The notes beneath the pieces were generated by a model, which had not been told where the DNA came from, searched no databases, and saw only the letters and a list, made by a program, of their open reading frames with translations. Positions 12,431-63,384 of a stretch of DNA of 64,000 bases are shown piece by piece; position 1 is the stretch's first letter; every line of letters begins with the position of its first letter. A program made the translations under genes and the position numbers. Source of the stretch: Nannobrachium achirus (taxonomy: Eukaryota > Chordata > Actinopteri > Myctophiformes > Myctophidae). The stretch spans positions 33,828,891 through 33,892,890 of the forward strand of contig OY997657.1 in NCBI GenBank assembly GCA_963921795.1, written 5' to 3'.

Positions 12431-23469
<11,039 letters not shown>

Positions 23470-34155: not shown

Positions 34156-34951
34156 TTGCTGTAGCTGTAAGAACAGGTCAAACATATACATTTGAATCAT
34201 GGGAATTACATTATCGTTAAAAGGGAAAAAGTCCCAAATGGCCATTATCGACTACATTCAAAGCAAAACATCCTGCAGACATTTCCCATTAAAAGAATGC
34301 TATGAAAACCATTTAGAGTAAGCTAGATATAGTTCAAAGCATCCCACCCTGCTCCACTAAACTATTGTCATTAAGTCCCATTTAACGGCTCAGACCTGGC
34401 AGGGACACAAGTATGTGTTGCAACAACAAAACAAAAAAAGAAAGCTTGAACAAATAAACATTGCAGTGAAACTGCAATTTCCTTAGCAACTGGCAAGTAT
34501 TTGTTTGCATCCTCTTGCCATGGCAACCAGTTTCCTCAATAACAGGAAATGAAAAAGCTGTGTGTTTTTGAGGATTCTCTGTCGCCACTTCCTTTTAAAG
34601 TCTTTCTCGCTTCTTTAAAGTCAATGAACTCAAATATGCTTGTAAAGAACTTGCGTGCTTTCCAATGTGACGAAGACAGAAAGAGTGTTATCTATATCAA
34701 ATCCAAATAACTGTTTGATATTTTGTCTCCCTGTATGAAAAGTTATGCAAATAAAGATTGTCCTGACTTGACAAACGGCAATAATACTTAGTGAGATATC
34801 CCCAAAGCAAGAAGCAAGAGAAAGGAAATTAAAATGATATAAGGTTTTGTAATTGACAGTGTGCCTTCTATAAATAGTAAAAATATATTTTTTAACACTT
34901 AAGCCCTATAGCATCCCTATTATGGGAATATCTAACTCTTAATTTACTGAA

Positions 34952-35667
34952 CTAGAAGCTGGGCCGCCCAAAGGGCGGCCCAGCGTCTAGTCGGCGACCT
35001 GGCCAACTCGGGAACGATGTAAATAGGGAATGAATGCCTACCTGTTGTCATAGGACCCGTTTTGACCATCTGTTTGCCTGTGTCCATTTATGCCCATATA
35101 TGGAGATATCTGTATCTGTCTGTCTGTCGGCGTCCATTTTATGTCCATATATGGAGATCACTGCAGATATAGTTCTGGGTCCATTTTATGCCCATGCCCA
35201 TATATGGAGATATTTGTCTATTTGCGTCCATTTTATGCCCATATATGGAGATCTCTGTATCTGTCTGTCTGTGTCCCTTTATGCCCGTATATGGAGATAT
35301 CTGTTTATCTGCGTCCATTTTATGCCCATATATGAGATCTCTGTCGCTTTTTGTTTGTTTCTTCTTTAAGCAGAATACACAGCCTGCTTAAATCTGCATC
35401 ATTCAAGTCATTCTCCCAGTCCCACGCTTTGTTGCTTGTCTTATGTTTGTCTTTGTCTCTTTTATTTTCTTTTTTGGAGCGGACCCCATGAATGCCCCAC
35501 CCTTTAATGCAAACCCCAATATACCTGTTGTCATAGGACACGTTTTGACCATCTGTTTGCCTTTGTCCCCACCCTTTAATGCAAACCCCAATATACCTGT
35601 TGTCATAGGACCCGTTTTGACCATCTGTTTGCCTTTGTCCCCTTATGCCCATATATGGAGATCTCAA
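34952..35667 (-). mobile_element. non-autonomous Helitron-like element with CCATATATGG repeats, copy 2
   Basis: On the minus strand it ends in the hairpin GGGCCGCCC/GGGCGGCCC and then TTCTAG|T, the CTRR|T layout of Helitron 3' ends. The last 100 bp match the end of 44329-45823 in the opposite orientation. Internal part: five perfect CCATATATGG palindromes and a tandem of about 75 bp (35495-35640). The 5' end is not recognised. Confidence 0.7.
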
Positions 35668-44328: not shown

Positions 44329-45823
44329 TCTATCTATAAATGCGAGAAGTCTCTGCGTGTGTGTTTGTAATCCGCGTATCTCGAGAACCGTTCGTCCCAC
44401 CGGCTTCAGATTCGGCACGCGCGTTCCCCGCCGCGGCACGGAGTGCAGTGCCGGGCCTCGACCCGACCCGACGCGCGGTTTTCCCTAACCGGCGCGAAAC
44501 GTTCGGAATCTCCTTATGCGGAAATCGGTGCAAAATCGGCGCACGCGCTGACTCATTGTGACATCACTGCAGTGCCGGGCGCAAGCGCTGAGTCATTGTG
44601 ACATCACTGCAGGCAGATACAGGGGCCTAGCCTCGACCCGACAGACTGAGATCTCCATATATGGGCATATGGGCAGATACAGAGATCTCCATATATGGGC
44701 AATACAGGGGCCTTGCCTCGACCCGACAGATATCTCCGTATATGGGCATAAAAGGGACACAGACAGATATATCTCCGTATATGGGCATAAAAGGGACACA
44801 GACAGATATATGGGCATAAAAGGGACACAGACTGAGATCTCCATGACAGATATCTCTGTATATGGGCATAAAAGGGACACAGACTGATACAGAGAATGGG
44901 CATATGGGCAGATACAGAGATCTCCATATATGGGCATATGGGCATAAAATGGACGCAGATATATGGGCATAAAAGGGACACAGACTGAGATCTCCATATA
45001 TGGGCATATGGGCAGATACAGAGATCTCCATATATGGGCATATGGGCATAAAAGATGGACACAGATAGAGTATATGGGCATAAAAGGGACACAGACAGAT
45101 ACAGAGATCTCCATATAATGGGGTTTGCATCCGTATATGGGCATAAAAGGGACACAGACAGATATATAGGCATAAAAGGGACACAGACTGAAATCTCCAT
45201 GACAGATATCTCCGTATATGGGCATAAAAGGGACACAGACTGATACAGAGAATGGGCATATGGGCAGATACAGAGATCTCCATATATGGGCATATGGGCA
45301 TAAAATGGACGCAGATATATGGGCATAAAAGGGACACAGACTGAGATCTCCATATATGGGCATATGGGCAGATACAGAGATCTCCATATATGGGCATATG
45401 GGCATAAAAGATGGACACAGATAGAGTATATGGGCATAAAAGGGACACAGACAGATACAGAGATCTCCATATAATGGGATTTGCATTAAAGGGTGGGGCA
45501 TTCATTCCCTATTTACATCGTTCCCGAGTTGGCCAGGTCGCAAACTCCATATATGGGCATAAATGGGCACAGGCAAACAGATGGTCAAACCAGGTACAGA
45601 GATCTCCATATATGGGCAGAAAATGGACGTAGACAGACATATCTCTCCATATATGGGCATAAATGGACACACGCAAACAGATGGTCAAAACGGATCCTAT
45701 GACAACAGGTATAATGGGGTTTGCATTAAAGGGCGGGGCATTCATTCCCTATTTACATTGTTCCCGAGTTGGCCAGGTCGCCGACTAGACGCTCGGCCGC
45801 CCGAAGGGCGGCCGAGCTTCTAG
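44329..45823 (+). mobile_element. non-autonomous Helitron-like element with CCATATATGG array, full copy
   Basis: 5' end A|TCTATCTATAAATGCGAGAA; 3' end has the hairpin CGGCCGCCC-gaa-GGGCGGCCG then AGCTTCTAG|T. Insertion between A and T without duplication fits Helitrons. The interior is a minisatellite of GGGCATAAAAGGGACACAGA and GATCTCCATATATGGGCATA modules with 11 perfect CCATATATGG by my count. A 360-bp direct duplication (44880-45127 repeated at 45240-45487) is included. No helicase or Rep domain. Long minus-strand open frames over 44593-45505 arise from the repeat and I do not call them genes. Confidence 0.75.
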
Positions 45824-46263
45824 TTTATATAATAATACAACGTTTTAATATAGATACTGTGTGCACCTGAAATCTAATCTTTTACTTTAACCACTAAAAT
45901 AACGTCATGCTCTTCCAATGGCGAAAACAACCACTTGTACACTTGGACTAAATTGCATCAGAGTTGCAGTTCTGTCAAGACCAGCAATGCAGTTGAACTG
46001 GATCTTCATCGGGAGTTCGGGACCAACTGAATGGTGTCTCCAAGCCTTTCAATTCACATCCTATCTCTCAGATTAGTCACAGATTAGAAATAGATGGAGT
46101 GGACACCAGGTCAGATAAATAGTGCCTTTCACACGCCCCCGCAGGCCTATAAGGCCTAGTGGACTGTTAAGCAGCCTACACACCAGACCTTGTCCTGGCT
46201 AAAAGCTGGATAGTTGGGGATGCTCTTAAACACCAAGGAACTCTTGTTCACTACCATCTACAG

Positions 46264-46975: not shown

Positions 46976-47186
46976 GGGGCGCCCGGTGGCCTACTGGTCA
47001 GGGCGCATACCATATAGGCATTGCCATTTCGGCATCAATGCCTGCGGCGTCGCCGGTTCGATTCCCGATCCGGACGACCTTTGTCGCATGTCACTCCCCA
47101 TCTCTCTCTCCCCATTTCCTGTCAGTCTACTGTACTATAAAATAAAGGCAAAAAAAAGCCCCCCCAAAAATAAAAAAAATAAAAAA
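46976..47186 (+). mobile_element. tRNA-derived SINE with intact 11-bp TSD
   Basis: A box TGGCCTACTGG at 46987 and B box GGTTCGATTCC at 47055, a body with TGTCACTCCCCATCTCTCTC and an A-rich tail. Perfect direct repeats atgatctgatc at 46965-46975 and 47187-47197 mark target-primed insertion. It is not a functional tRNA gene. Confidence 0.93.
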
Positions 47187-58800: not shown

Positions 58801-61800
58801 CGGTCATGTAAGGGCATCATGCAGTCATCGGTCAGCGAGGGCAGAACAGGCCTGGGTAGTCATTGGTCCAGATCCCAATGCCCATAGTTGAGAAGAACCA
58901 AGCGGATGGCAGCGACGCCACGGGCACAGCGCCAGCGCCCAAGTGGCGAGAGGAACAAATTAAAATAAAAACCTGGTATGAAACAAGCCGCGCACACACG
59001 CACGCTGCTCCACCATGTGCCAGCTTTACAATGAACCCCACAAGCTCTTCTCTTGGAACACGGCAAGAAACAGAAAAGCCTGTTCCCTCAATAATGCATT
59101 AGCCACAACAGGATGTGCTACTGTTAAAGGCACACATGCACACACACACACATGTGCAACTGCACATACACAGGCACAAAGAAATACAGTATATTTCACA
59201 TTCACACACCAGTCACACACACAAAAAACACAGTCAGACAGATAGACATCCTGTGTGACATTTATGAGTTCCGCACAGATTTGGCCGCTAACGCTGAGCC
59301 TGGGCCGTGACTGGCCACTGATGACTTTCTCAGAACCGATCCAACTGACACACAGGCCCCTATTGTCCAGTCTGGCTCTGGTACTTTGCACAGCCTCGCG
59401 CAGTCAGCCCTGCCTCTGGATCTATTTTATGCCAGTGGCAGGGGGACCCTAAAGATGGATTAACCATCCCCCCGACCACGGCCCCCTCACTTCCCAGCCT
59501 CTCACATCCCACATCCTGACATATGAGAACGTCCTCTCCCCCTGCCATCCTTCTACGGCTAGTTATCGCTACAATGGTAATACCATGCTAGATCAATTGA
59601 ACACAATAATTAATTACTTTTGTTAGTGATTATTTGAGTCGGGGACGTTTTGGCATCTTATGCCACTGTGTTCGATTTCAATTACGAGGGGTATTCTAAA
59701 TGCAAATATATCCTAAATCCTGGTTCAGACCAAAGATTTGTGATCAGATTAAGAGAACCGATTAAGAGTCATTTTAAGCCCAATTTATACTTCATTGTGT
59801 GATGTGTCGCAAAATAGACAACCTACTAACTCACACCGATTTGAGTTGCGAGCTAGTAGCTTTGTTATTTTCGGCATGCAACACCATTGGACATACATTT
59901 AAGTATTAGAACGTTGAGGAGAAAAACCACAACGGTTTGAAATACCCAGAAAGTCATGATATACCATTCCTACAAATCTCTGCATCTATCCATTCATCCA
60001 TCTTTAACCGAATACTGCCCGACTTTGCTGGGTCCAGGCCCTGTTTAACAGACCACATCGAGGTGGATTAGTGAAGTCATGATCTTGTAAGCTGTGGACA
60101 GTGGAGACTTGTGACCTTCTCCATGGAAGCTTGGCCATCTGCCATCAAGCCTCCGGGAGCTGCCGTCCTCTGTTTGGCCCACGGATGAGGGGCTACGGCA
60201 GGCTTCATCTCCCCGCCAAGGCCCCAAGGCTCCCCTTTTTAAAGAGAGATCTGAGGTCGCCTAACCTTCTGTACACAGGCCCCGGGATAACATCAAACAT
60301 ACCCTCCCGCGACCCAAAAAAAATCCCTTTTACATTCCTGCATTTTATACAATTATGTCTCCCAAGGACCCTGAACCTGAAACCCCCCTGTCCACCCCCT
60401 GTTTCCATGACAATGAAAGGGGCACAAAAGTTCCCCCGACTAAAGCCAGGCTCCTGTCATCGTGGCAGTGCTGCCTCAGGCGGGATTTGGAAGCCGTCCA
60501 TTGAGAGAGGACGGAGGCGGAGAGATGAGAGAGCGAGAGAAATAATAAAGCGAGGGACGCGTACTGTGGGCTACATGTTACAGTAATCATATAGAGATTA
60601 AACATCAGGACAGCATCCTCTGGGGTCTGCAGGGAAATTGCTTTTGTGTACTACAGACCCAGATCATATCCTTCCTGTGCGGACCGGGGGAAGTGTTCTG
60701 CCTCTGACACTGACGTAATCAGAGCGGAGGCTGGAGGGGTCAGCATATTCTGTCATGTCCAGAGAGAGGGACATGGAATTGGTAGCTGGGTCATGACAGC
60801 GAGAAGGGGATGAGGATGATAAGTAAGTGCTTGGGTCAAAGCTAGACGTACAGGGAACAGCACTTTGCTGCGGCCCGCAGTTGGAGGGAAATATGCTGAG
60901 GGGTGATACAGCTGTAATTACATAACAGAGGACAAGAGAACAGACACCAAGTGATCCTGTCTGTAGGGCTAGAGAAGTTCAAGTCCCATCCGAGGCATGT
61001 TACAGGCTTACAGTAAGGTAGGGGGGAGTTTCAATTAGAAATGAATGGGCCTAGTTTTAACGCCATCATGTAATAATAGCAATTGTGAGCTTCTCAGTGT
61101 TTGAGGACAGCAGACTTTGTGTGTGTGTGTGTGTGTAGTGTGTACATTTTTGGGGGGGGGGGGGGGGGGACTTTATTGATAGGACAGTAGACTGACAGGC
61201 AATGGGGAGTGACCGCAGCAAAGGTCGTCGGGAACTGGACTCGAAACCACGAAAAGCTGTCAGGTATCAGAGTCTATGTGGTATGCGCCTGGACCGCTAG
61301 GCCAACAGACACCCCTCCACATGTGTTTTTGCCCCGCTGTCAATCTCCTGTCATCACGCCCACTCATTGTCTCACTACATTCTAACCAGTCAGAGCAGAC
61401 TATCACGCCTTCGCTCCATTATGCTAATCACATTCACTGTTATTTAAACCTGCTTTCACTAGAGAGACCAAGCATCAGACAAAATATAGGGTTAAGGTTA
61501 TTTATTATAAGACCGAGAGCCTGGTCGTTTATGGGCGCATCGCATGCGTGGCATGAGATGTGCGGCATAAACGGCCAAGAATGCAGAGTGCTAATGGTCA
61601 TCTAAGGTCAGCACTACACACAAGCGTGCAGTGTGCAGCTTAGATGGTCAAGGGCACGAACAACATTTAGGTTTTGGTGTATGGTCGTTTATGGGCGTAT
61701 CGCATGCGTGGCATGGGACATGCAGCATAAACGGCCAAGATGCTGAGTGCGAAGTAGTCATCTAAGGACATCACAACACGCAAGCATGCTGTGTGCGGCT

Positions 61801-63384
61801 TAGATGGCTATGACTCCCGATCAGCATGAGGGAGACGGCACGGTCATCGGGGCATGAATGACGTAGGTGCCGGCTTGGTCATCGGGGCATGGATGACATG
61901 GGGGTGCCAGCATGGTCATCTAAGGTCACGCACCATGCGAGCATGGTGTGTGCAGCTTGGATGGCCAAGGGCGTGAAATGACACTCTGAGTGCGTGGTCA
62001 TCTAAGGTCAGCACCACACGCAAGCGTGTAGTGTGCAGCTTAGATGGCCATGGGCAAGAGAATTACATTTGGGGTGCTGGCATGATCATCGAAGGTCATC
62101 ACCTCACGCAAGCGTGTAGTGTGCAGCTTAGATGGTCAGGAGCACGGATGGAGGATGGCAGGCATGAGGGGGGAGGTTCCGGGGGTCGCAGACCCAGGTA
62201 CTTTGGCTTAGGGGTCAAGAGCACGCGTCCGTGCTGAAGTATGTAGAGAGACCCCACCTGGAACCTGTAGAAGAGGATAGGGGTAGAAAAGAAAAGAAGA
62301 GGGAGGGAGGGTGGGTTACTGGAAACTATGCACGCCGCCATTTTTTCAAGTCGGGTTTATATATCACTGTGATGGGTGGAGGAGGAGTTGTCGGCTTGAT
62401 AGGAGATGGGTGAGTGGTTGGCACAGGGTGGCATGGGTGGAGTTACCAGTGGCTGGTTAGAGGTGGTTGATTGTCCTCTGCTTGGCCACATCTCCTCCCG
62501 AACTTAAGTTGTTCCAACTCCATTTAGCCTGTGTTGCGCTGTGTCTCTGTCTTTGCCTTATAAGCACATTATCATGTGCTTGTCCTTATAATGACAAAAT
62601 CAACCTATTTCTTTATACCAATCACAAGTATCTAGAAAATAAATCTTGAGGATTTCTGAATGATTCCATCCTAAGATTTACAAACCACTGCAATCCCAGA
62701 ACCATAAACCCTACTGTTGTTACCAGAGTTTTAGCTTTTTTCTTTTTAGTCTTTTTAAGCTGTTAAAAGTATTGCTTCGTATTTCAATTACTTTTCTGTG
62801 TTTTGACAATGATGGATTACGTAGATGGAACCAAATGTGAAAAATAAATCAGGGGAAAAACACCAGGTATTCTTTAAAGAAGCATGAAACCATAGGCTGA
62901 TTTTGTCATTTGTTTTCCAGTTTAGGTTCAAAACTACAGATGCAAAACGTGGCAGGCTAGTAAACAAAAGCGTACTACTTGTGTATGGTCAGTCTTATAT
63001 TGCCATGTTTACCTGCTGTGTGTTTTTTCTTTTAAAGATTAGTTTTGGGGCTTTTATGCCTTTATTCAAAGGACAGTAGACTGACAGGCAATGGGGAGAG
63101 AGATGGGGAGTGACACGCAGCAAAGGTCGTCGGGATCGGGACTCGAACCCACGACACGCTGCCTGCCAGGCATCAGAGCCCATTTCCCTGGACCGTTAGG
63201 TCAGTGGACACCCCACCTGCTGTAGTGTTTAACCTGAACTGGAGAACAAACTACAGTATAGGGTTTTGTGCTTGGGGTTTCCCACTCACCTCAGCATGGC
63301 CCCCTGTAGTCAGAAGCTTGTTGCAGCGGTCACACTTCAGGCACATCTTGTGCCAGTCTTTGCCCAGTGATGACACCTTCTCAG
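55798..63384 (-). CDS. crip2: crip2: cysteine-rich protein 2, two LIM domains (5'-partial, 7 exons visible)
   Basis: Minus-strand gene with coding exons 63384-63290, 58300-58243, 58024-57896, 57180-57112, 56976-56882, 56222-56165 and 55865-55798. These encode 190 residues; with the missing first exon of about 14 residues the total is about 204, close to human CRIP2 (208). Order: rest of LIM1 ([16 protein letters not shown], then [17 protein letters not shown]), a [12 protein letters not shown] motif, a linker with four consecutive Asn and a basic stretch, then a complete LIM2 ([43 protein letters not shown]) and the tail [13 protein letters not shown] ending VTQP-stop. The GVNxGG.GSYIYD signature after each LIM is typical of CRIP2. 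CRIP3 is the alternative but has a different C-terminus. Family knowledge: a LIM adaptor of smooth muscle, endothelium and heart that scaffolds transcription factors. No sequence resembling exon 1 is seen up to 64000, so it lies outside. Confidence 0.95.
56165..56222 (-). CDS. crip2: crip2 coding exon 7 (end of LIM2)
   Basis: 58 bp encoding [19 protein letters not shown], which closes zinc site 2 of LIM2. The acceptor is ttttcttacag and the donor AAAG|gtaacc. The upstream intron carries a hAT-like MITE (56413-56796) with a perfect 8-bp TSD. Confidence 0.95.
56413..56796. mobile_element. hAT-like MITE, family C, in the last-but-one crip2 intron
   Basis: Termini CAGTGGTTCTCAAAC and GGTTGAAAACCACTG with perfect 8-bp duplications ccttaaat (56405-56412 and 56797-56804). 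Its inner GGTCCGGGGACCACC and GGTGGTCC segments match the copy at 3145-3515. Confidence 0.92.
56882..56976 (-). CDS. crip2: crip2 coding exon 6 (LIM2 core)
   Basis: 95 bp encoding [18 protein letters not shown] through TLSAGSHAE. The acceptor is gttaatag, preceded directly by a (TG)n-type repeat rather than a normal pyrimidine tract. The donor is GAG|gtaaga. Skipping this exon would shift the frame, because 95 is not a multiple of three. Confidence 0.95.
56977..57024. repeat. (CA)n/(CGCA)n repeat at crip2 exon 6 acceptor
   Basis: On the transcript strand this is a (TG)n tract with GCGTGT variants ending about 10 nt before the acceptor TTAATAG of exon 6. Confidence 0.95.
57112..57180 (-). CDS. 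crip2: crip2 coding exon 5 (start of LIM2)
   Basis: 69 bp encoding [17 protein letters not shown] and SKKVYF. The TTFSGE motif corresponds to TTFTGE of mammalian CRIP2 just before the second LIM. It provides the first CxxC zinc pair of LIM2. The acceptor is gtgtttgcag and the donor TTTG|gtaagt. Confidence 0.95.
57896..58024 (-). CDS. crip2: crip2 coding exon 4 (inter-LIM linker)
   Basis: 129 bp beginning [16 protein letters not shown], then four Asn codons (AAC repeat), TTAVDSAPK and an [13 protein letters not shown] basic segment. This is the flexible linker between the LIM domains. The AAC run is a short coding trinucleotide repeat that could vary in length. The acceptor is actcacag and the donor AAAAG|gtacat. 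Confidence 0.94.
58243..58300 (-). CDS. crip2: crip2 coding exon 3 (end of LIM1)
   Basis: 58 bp encoding [19 protein letters not shown]. It has Gly where the paralogous exons have Asp (HGG for HDG). The acceptor is gtcccacag. The donor AAAAG|gtatag is weaker than the other donors in this gene. The preceding intron is 5.0 kb and contains one copy of the hairpin-array repeat. Confidence 0.95.
58301..61149. other. crip2 intron 2 sequence, no further exon recognised
   Basis: CA-rich stretch at 59130-59225 and a possible degraded CAATTTATAC element at 59778-59903. No LIM-like or other exon seen. Confidence 0.4.
61154..61316 (-). mobile_element. tRNA-derived SINE, minus strand, with poly-G
   Basis: In reverse: tRNA-like head with GGTTTCGAGTCCAGTTCCC (B-box like), CTTTGCTGCGGTCACTCCCC body and CTGTCAGTCTACTGTCC end, followed by a run of about 18 C (poly-G on plus). 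Confidence 0.75.
61564..62524. repeat. hairpin-array repeat, copy 2 (961 bp)
   Basis: Near-identical to 18199-19155. Hairpin units with ~54-nt span start at 61523 (outside the shared part), 61596, 61683, 61756, 61914, 61996 and 62084; a less regular stretch lies at 61843-61910. After the units come the same AGCACGCGTCCGTG and TAGAAGAGGATAGGGGTAGA segments and the terminus CCAACTCCATT. Lies in crip2 intron 2. No coding potential recognised. Confidence 0.9.
63020..63214 (-). mobile_element. tRNA-derived SINE, minus strand, with TSD
   Basis: Reverse reading: GGGGTGTCCACTGACCTAAC head, B box GGGTTCGAGTCCC, body TGTCACTCCCCATCTCTCTC, then GAATAAAGGC and a T/A-rich end. Direct repeats acctgctgt flank it (63011-63019 and 63215-63223). 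Confidence 0.85.
63290..63384 (-). CDS. crip2: crip2 coding exon 2 (LIM1 core)
   Basis: 95 bp encoding [18 protein letters not shown] through LLTTGGHAE. The acceptor is catgtgcag and the donor GAG|gtgagt. It supplies H and C of zinc site 1 and the CxxC opening site 2. The first CxxC of LIM1 must be in the exon beyond the window edge. Confidence 0.95.

Follow-up and report, generated by a model that had tools for sequence, protein, structure and literature searches.

The window, that is, the whole stretch of 64,000 nucleotides of the Nannobrachium achirus genome analysed here, carries two copies of a repeat of about 1 kb in which palindromes follow one another in an array, and the question raised by this locus is whether such regular hairpins belong to a structured non-coding RNA or a foldback replicon, the two possibilities raised by the earlier note, or to an element of another kind. 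Alignment of the two copies confirmed the repeat: copy 1 is colinear with copy 2 and shows 95.75% identity over 965 alignment columns, so that the two have diverged by about 4%. The limits first given to the repeat (61523..62524) held approximately at the right end but not at the left, and comparison with loci fetched from the genome indicated that the true unit extends from 61456 to 62523. Copy 1 has no left end; its alignment with copy 2 and the genome loci showed that it is missing up to the equivalent of 61563.

A search of the genome (1,658,514,493 bases) with the ~1 kb repeat returned at least 86 matches, a lower bound based on the scoring of 40 of 172 candidates, and 20 places were fetched for reading. 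Comparison of the junctions in these loci revealed common ends of the units, TTCACTAG on the left and CCAT on the right as read in the orientation of the earlier note. Eight of the 20 places (L058-L065) contain the unit, then a head-to-tail second copy of its first 965 bases followed by a longer internal part, of about 2.5 kb in L060; this gives the order B2-A2-B1-internal or, on the opposite strand, ORFs-B1-A2-B2. The final ~209 bases of the unit, designated A, appear again beyond the internal part as A1. Seven of these eight loci contain A1: it is complete in L060-L065 and interrupted by the locus boundary in L058, while the L059 locus stops before A1. Split direct repeats in the order A1 - ORFs - B1 - A2 - B2, full and near-identical, were found in L060 and L062-L065, and with a shorter B2 in L061. 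The same layout with a truncated outer unit occurs in L066 and L068, the outer unit is absent from L067, L069, L070 and the divergent L075-L077, and L071-L074 are isolated solo units of about 1230 bp. Loci L067, L069 and L070, which consist of A1-ORF-B without A2-B2 and have exactly the same ends, represent a third form found in this genome, in addition to full elements and solo units. In this family A is about 209 bp long and carries a TATA-like box, while B is about 800-965 bp long, contains the hairpin array and has an AATAAA close to its end.

The coding strand of the full elements corresponds to the minus strand of the window, opposite to the strand on which the earlier note had read the repeat, and the window copies and their parts are as follows.

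61456..62523, minus strand: copy 2, a complete solo A-B unit of 1068 bp, with ends TTCACTAG.. and ..CCAT as in the units of other fetched loci
18199..19154, minus strand: copy 1, an A-B unit truncated inside the first hairpin and without the AATAAA end of B (alignment and comparison of loci)
61456..62256, minus strand: B repeat (3' UTR-like) with the hairpin array, equivalent to the block repeated as B1 and B2 in L058-L065
62257..62315, minus strand: link between A and B, lying outside the A1 and B1 matches in full elements
62316..62523, minus strand: A repeat, equivalent to the 209-bp block at both ends of the internal part in L060-L065
62356..62363, minus strand: putative TATA-like box in A, TATATAAA on the coding strand (motif position)
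61501..61506, minus strand: putative AATAAA near the end of B (motif position)
62211..62255, minus strand: GGGGTC..GACCCC at the start of B on the coding strand, able to pair, with folding no better than that of shuffles in the window-repeat family (L060, z -0.7; L075, z 0.3)

The unit of copy 2 is about one hairpin dimer (160 bp) shorter than that of L059, which has one extra dimer. Motif reading of the link 62257..62315 identified a polypyrimidine tract ending in CAG on the coding strand, like a 3' splice site, and, on the plus strand, a purine tract that includes GGGAGGGAGGG. A polypyrimidine tract followed by YAG, often with CTAAC upstream, was also found between A2 and B2 in L079, L080, L082, L084, L086, L089, L090 and L091, and from these motifs it would appear as if a 3' splice site were kept there across families.

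Other small repeats lie close to both copies. A MITE with inverted ends and TTAA on both sides (19164-19440) is separated by a few bases from copy 1 at its right end, and a pair of 19-nt inverted repeats 283 nt apart (62590-62608 and 62892-62910), possibly the ends of a small transposon, is located just right of copy 2. Three mutually related pieces, presumably tRNA-SINE-like, flank copy 2 on both sides (61171-61318 and 63060-63217) and occur elsewhere in the window (47049-47162).

The internal part was characterised in L075 (C9), a member of a related subfamily whose B is about 91% identical, and it is from this subfamily, not from the window copies themselves, that the genes are known. An ORF of 483 codons (357-1805 on the coding strand) matched the reverse transcriptase (RT) domain RVT_1 with 6.1e-07 and 29.8 bits against a curated cut-off of 29.6. 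A second ORF of 357 codons (1706-2776) overlaps the first and gave a match to Phage_integrase (1.3e-4) below the cut-off and a match to the Tre/Cre recombinase (1.4e-4) over residues 66-342. Residues R190, K228, H306, R309, W332 and Y340 of this ORF were invariant in 10 of 10 aligned sequences, the query included, and this set (R, K, H-x-x-R, W, Y) is what we take to be the catalytic set of tyrosine recombinases (YR). No room is left between the overlapping RT and YR ORFs of L075 for a methyltransferase domain, this interval being the one looked at. B begins about 20 bases past the YR ORF. The YR protein has 681 relatives at E <= 1e-5; among the best 120 of these, many named ones are from fishes (Anoplopoma, Astyanax, Sparus, Labeo) and others from molluscs and hemichordates, and no name shown among these 120 says Ngaro. 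Locus L060 contains an ORF of 544 codons with a Cys/His motif and no Pfam match, and retains only a C-terminal remnant of YR; from its sequence it may be read as non-autonomous.

These data indicate that both window copies are very probably solo A-B terminal repeats of a Ngaro-like YR retrotransposon family, a class assignment made by the repeat layout and the RT and YR genes of related copies. The original description of Ngaro is reportedly that of Goodwin and Poulter in 2004. In YR retrotransposons the RNA made from A is reverse-transcribed and circularised, and the circle is inserted by the YR without target duplication. In the present family, transcription would proceed from A, a putative promoter with the TATA-like box, and reverse transcription would be followed by closure of a circle at B|A and by its YR-mediated insertion with no target duplication. 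If A1 and A2 then recombined, the internal part would be lost and a solo A-B repeat would remain. Identity between A1 and A2 and between B1 and B2 was 99.5-100% in the 10 elements with a comparable pair; those insertions are therefore recent, and the source element family is recently active.

Target duplications were not seen by eye in 13 flank pairs, and the joined flanks of copy 2, searched in the genome, matched only themselves and one partial sequence with 74% identity, so that the search gave no empty site. The 6-mer AGCCTG occurs at 61518 and 62526, is the sole 6-mer common to the two flanks compared and, together with the TATA-like box and the purine tract, would fit a fragment of an LTR element, a LINE or a DNA transposon flanked by a 6-bp target duplication. 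This is highly improbable, however: given the true left end, the AGCCTG at 61518 lies inside the element, the terminal repeats are split instead of forming equal LTRs, and the linked gene encodes a recombinase of the YR type. An LTR retrotransposon or TRIM was likewise rejected on the presence of A alone at one end and B-A-B at the other, with no equal LTRs and no target duplication seen. A LINE with 5' truncation, a Helitron and a transposon with the AGCCTG duplication were suggested by the window alone and fell with the true ends obtained from the genome. A DIRS1-like element was rejected on the terminal repeats being direct and split, not inverted with an internal complementary region.

Solo A-B repeats of a Ngaro-like element and split repeats are objects of a known kind; what is unusual here is the size of B and the hairpins in it. 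The Xenopus Ngaro-like element DIRS-53_XT (PMC9210276) has split repeats A1 and B1-A2-B2, with an A of 236 bp, a B of 152 bp and an SGNH hydrolase ORF. The layout agrees with that observed here, A1 being at one end, B1, A2 and B2 at the other, and RT and YR genes being present (PMC9210276, in part). In our family, however, the lengths are about 209 bp for A and about 800-965 bp for B, which contains a hairpin minisatellite, and no hydrolase was noticed among the ORFs examined. Isolated Ngaro AB repeats scattered in the genome of Cafeteria burkhardae have been likened to solo LTRs and resemble our solo A-B units in a different host (PMC8547959, in part); the words hairpin, tandem repeat and palindrom are absent from the main text of that paper. 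DIRS1-like elements have inverted terminal repeats with internal complementary regions and insert via a circular junction without target duplication, while PAT-like elements have split direct repeats, and both DIRS and PAT carry a methyltransferase domain (available portions of PMC3266345 and PMC4157794). All of these are YR-encoding retrotransposons, and the split direct repeats are shared with the PAT-like group; the present elements differ in the combination of direct, split repeats with overlapping RT and YR ORFs (PMC3266345, PMC4157794, in part). The word hairpin has 0 occurrences in each of the available texts of PMC9210276, PMC4157794, PMC8547959 and PMC6681497.

Analysis of the array itself recovered the seven palindromes at the starts given by the earlier note (61523, 61596, 61683, 61756, 61914, 61996 and 62084), each of 53-54 nt and folding at -22.3 to -38.0 kcal/mol. 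Unit alignment showed that the two stem types are real, as is the difference in the outer pair, A-T at 61756 and G-C at 61996. The tandem spacing of 73-88 bp was also recovered, but the double gap described in it is not a gap, being filled by two units that lost the hairpin, at 61842-61876 and 61877-61912. The units are listed below; all hairpins were identified by folding and unit alignment.

61523..61576, plus strand: hairpin A1 (type A)
61596..61649, plus strand: hairpin B1 (type B)
61683..61736, plus strand: hairpin A2 (type A)
61756..61809, plus strand: hairpin B2 (type B)
61842..61912, plus strand: two units of 35-36 bp without hairpin (unit alignment, direct repeat D5)
61914..61966, plus strand: hairpin B3 (type B)
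61996..62049, plus strand: hairpin B4 (type B)
62084..62137, plus strand: hairpin B5 (type B)

The array (61518-62145) folds with a z of -15.2 against dinucleotide shuffles, 0 of 20 of which were as good, and its opposite strand with a z of -11.4 (40 shuffles), while the tail (62146-62524) folds like its own shuffles (z -0.85; 17 of 100 as good). Summed over the units, folding amounts to -329 kcal/mol on the plus strand against -275 on the minus strand, the plus strand also being G-richer, and G-U and A-C events were about equal (5 and 4), so that the comparison led to no strand preference. Strong folding on both strands could be expected of an independent gene for a structured non-coding RNA, or of a foldback replicon. 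This origin is very hard to sustain, since the unit matches the repeats of full elements end for end, and since a search against the covariance models of Rfam 15 gave no match at gathering scores anywhere in the window and none at E up to 1 within 61400-62600. The RNA or replicon proposed by the earlier note thus gives way to the A-B repeat of a YR retrotransposon, in which the genome places the ~1 kb unit, while its remark that regular hairpin units are unlike a plain MITE was borne out. The note had named identification as a known catalogued element as refuting its proposal; a known kind of element was found here, which largely amounts to that refutation, although no match to a named catalogue entry was made. 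What was a candidate structured RNA is replaced by a precise element with defined ends, repeats, unit variation and young full copies.

Further searches with the array and the tail were negative. Patterns for the whole hairpin and the tail had 0 matches in viral_contigs and genome_contigs; a 15-base motif had one match in each of 27 viral_contigs stretches, taken as chance. No protein relatives were found for the minus-strand ORF of the tail, and Pfam searches with 40 ORFs of the window yielded nothing above the curated cut-off, the two weak matches being to PF22812 (0.013) and ORMDL (0.0032). miRNA-type hairpins were considered and dropped because of the short stems, the tiny loops and the position inside a retrotransposon repeat.

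The hairpins of 54 nt make up a palindromic minisatellite within B and are not a separate RNA gene. Array length differs inside one element, the two B repeats of L029 having 7 and 9 hairpins, and in hairpin B3 the loop reads CTCG in one window copy and CGAG in the other, an inversion such as hairpin flipping would produce. The minisatellite in B would grow and shrink by unit duplication and hairpin deletion.

The earlier note had further claimed covariation between units. Pairing is indeed mostly kept between the unit types, but much of the change is one split between types A and B, with few independent events. A covariance model of 13 window units found 342 matches in 36 sources, which are not all of the loci examined. 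Among the best 300 of the 342 matches, all were in the window or in loci of the window-repeat family, and the 16 loci that represent other YR-defined copies (L079-L094) had none. The best 150 matches were aligned and gave 85 distinct units, in which 95.9% of cells pair. Cells with two-sided change numbered 132 against 35.7 in shuffles and exceeded all 500 shuffles, which is what would be expected if the array were a selected part of the retrotransposon, either as a fold of the RNA in the 3' UTR or as a structure formed by the DNA of the cDNA or circle, which would aid export, packaging, reverse transcription or recombination during the active period of the source elements. Many of the 132 cells, however, reflect the single split between unit types, and the pairs with two-sided change (9 of 19, against 8.4 in shuffles) were not above shuffles, 227 of 500 reaching 9. 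Minimum spanning trees within types contained only 3 compensated doubles against 50 single changes by which a pair was broken or made; in 19 further changes the pair was kept via G-U, 1 double was not paired in both and 1 change was between two unpaired states. Across the family, paired columns (38 of 55) took ~78 of 141 changes (P 0.0003, computed with 77/140), a hint of constraint in the active lineage and a further point for selection, to which the choice of the 150 best matches may have contributed.

Between copies 1 and 2 the hairpins changed at 17 of 332 positions and the tail at 6 of 352 (P 0.018), while the P values were 0.079 for array against tail and 0.086 for hairpins against spacers (6/269). 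Twelve of the 17 hairpin changes lie in paired columns (P 0.64), and no compensated pair was found among these 12 in the unit alignments. The window copies evolve as if unconstrained, which argues against selection on their arrays, and the minisatellite in these two copies is most likely without function.

The B of sister families bears on the same point. The YR protein had at least 117 matches in its own genome (114 of 746 candidates scored), and the stretch after YR was read in 16 of these places, L079-L094. L080 (54% YR identity) carries in B three tandem copies of a 55-bp hairpin unrelated in sequence to the window hairpins, and the same hairpin is present as a single copy in L085; such an unrelated hairpin in B again favours selection. 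Against it, L079 (61% YR identity) has no strong hairpin or array in B, and the start of B folds with a z of -2.4 or lower in just 7 of 18 loci, none of the window-repeat family, so that a start-of-B hairpin is not universal. Taken with the counts above, a selected array is possible but rather unlikely, and the best-supported reading is a palindromic minisatellite tolerated in a 3' UTR-like repeat.

Junctions between B and A were folded one by one because MAFFT left the two most distant, L081 and L092, unaligned. All 11 sequences of the final set place the B|A junction (CTAGTGAA|ATG or equivalent) inside a dyad of ~60 nt (z -2.6 to -6.7). This set leaves out L090 and L094, near-identical to L086, from 13 junctions, of which one (L080, z 0.2) failed in a narrower window; the stretches fetched for L083, L085, L087 and L093 show no B|A junction. 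Individual folds showed that the outer arms of the dyad differ between families yet remain paired. Since a circular intermediate would carry the B|A sequence, we infer that the junction dyad is the recombinase site; if so, it offers a sequence-level handle on the circularisation and insertion of vertebrate YR retrotransposons. Neither hairpin arrays, of the window type or of the 55-bp type of L080, nor junction dyads were found for Ngaro elements in any paper of the literature searched, which covers a minority of subscription journals. A broader proposal would be that the Ngaro-like elements here carry cis structures absent from the searched papers, namely a ~60-nt dyad at B|A (the circle junction), with arms that vary while pairing is kept, acting as recombination site, together with B hairpins amplified into tandem arrays independently in at least two families because they help the element RNA or cDNA. 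This is speculative and, as a whole, we consider it unlikely; the hairpin arrays in two families do pose a testable question on structure in a 3' UTR-like repeat.

Other repeats with palindromes or minisatellites are present in the window. Two inverted copies of another repeat, at 34951-35661 and 44612-45825, contain a minisatellite of the ATATGGGCATAAAAGGGACACAG type unrelated to the hairpin array, and a strong hairpin, GGGCCGCCC/GGGCGGCCC, is located at the ends 34951 and 45825 of this pair. Near-perfect palindromes of ~60 nt, of the type AGATCTACAAGCTCACAGCGC.., are dispersed in 60-base windows starting at 19831, 20077, 21763, 22021, 41605, 42475 and 48553; several of them fold better than the array hairpins, and they look like short foldback MITEs.
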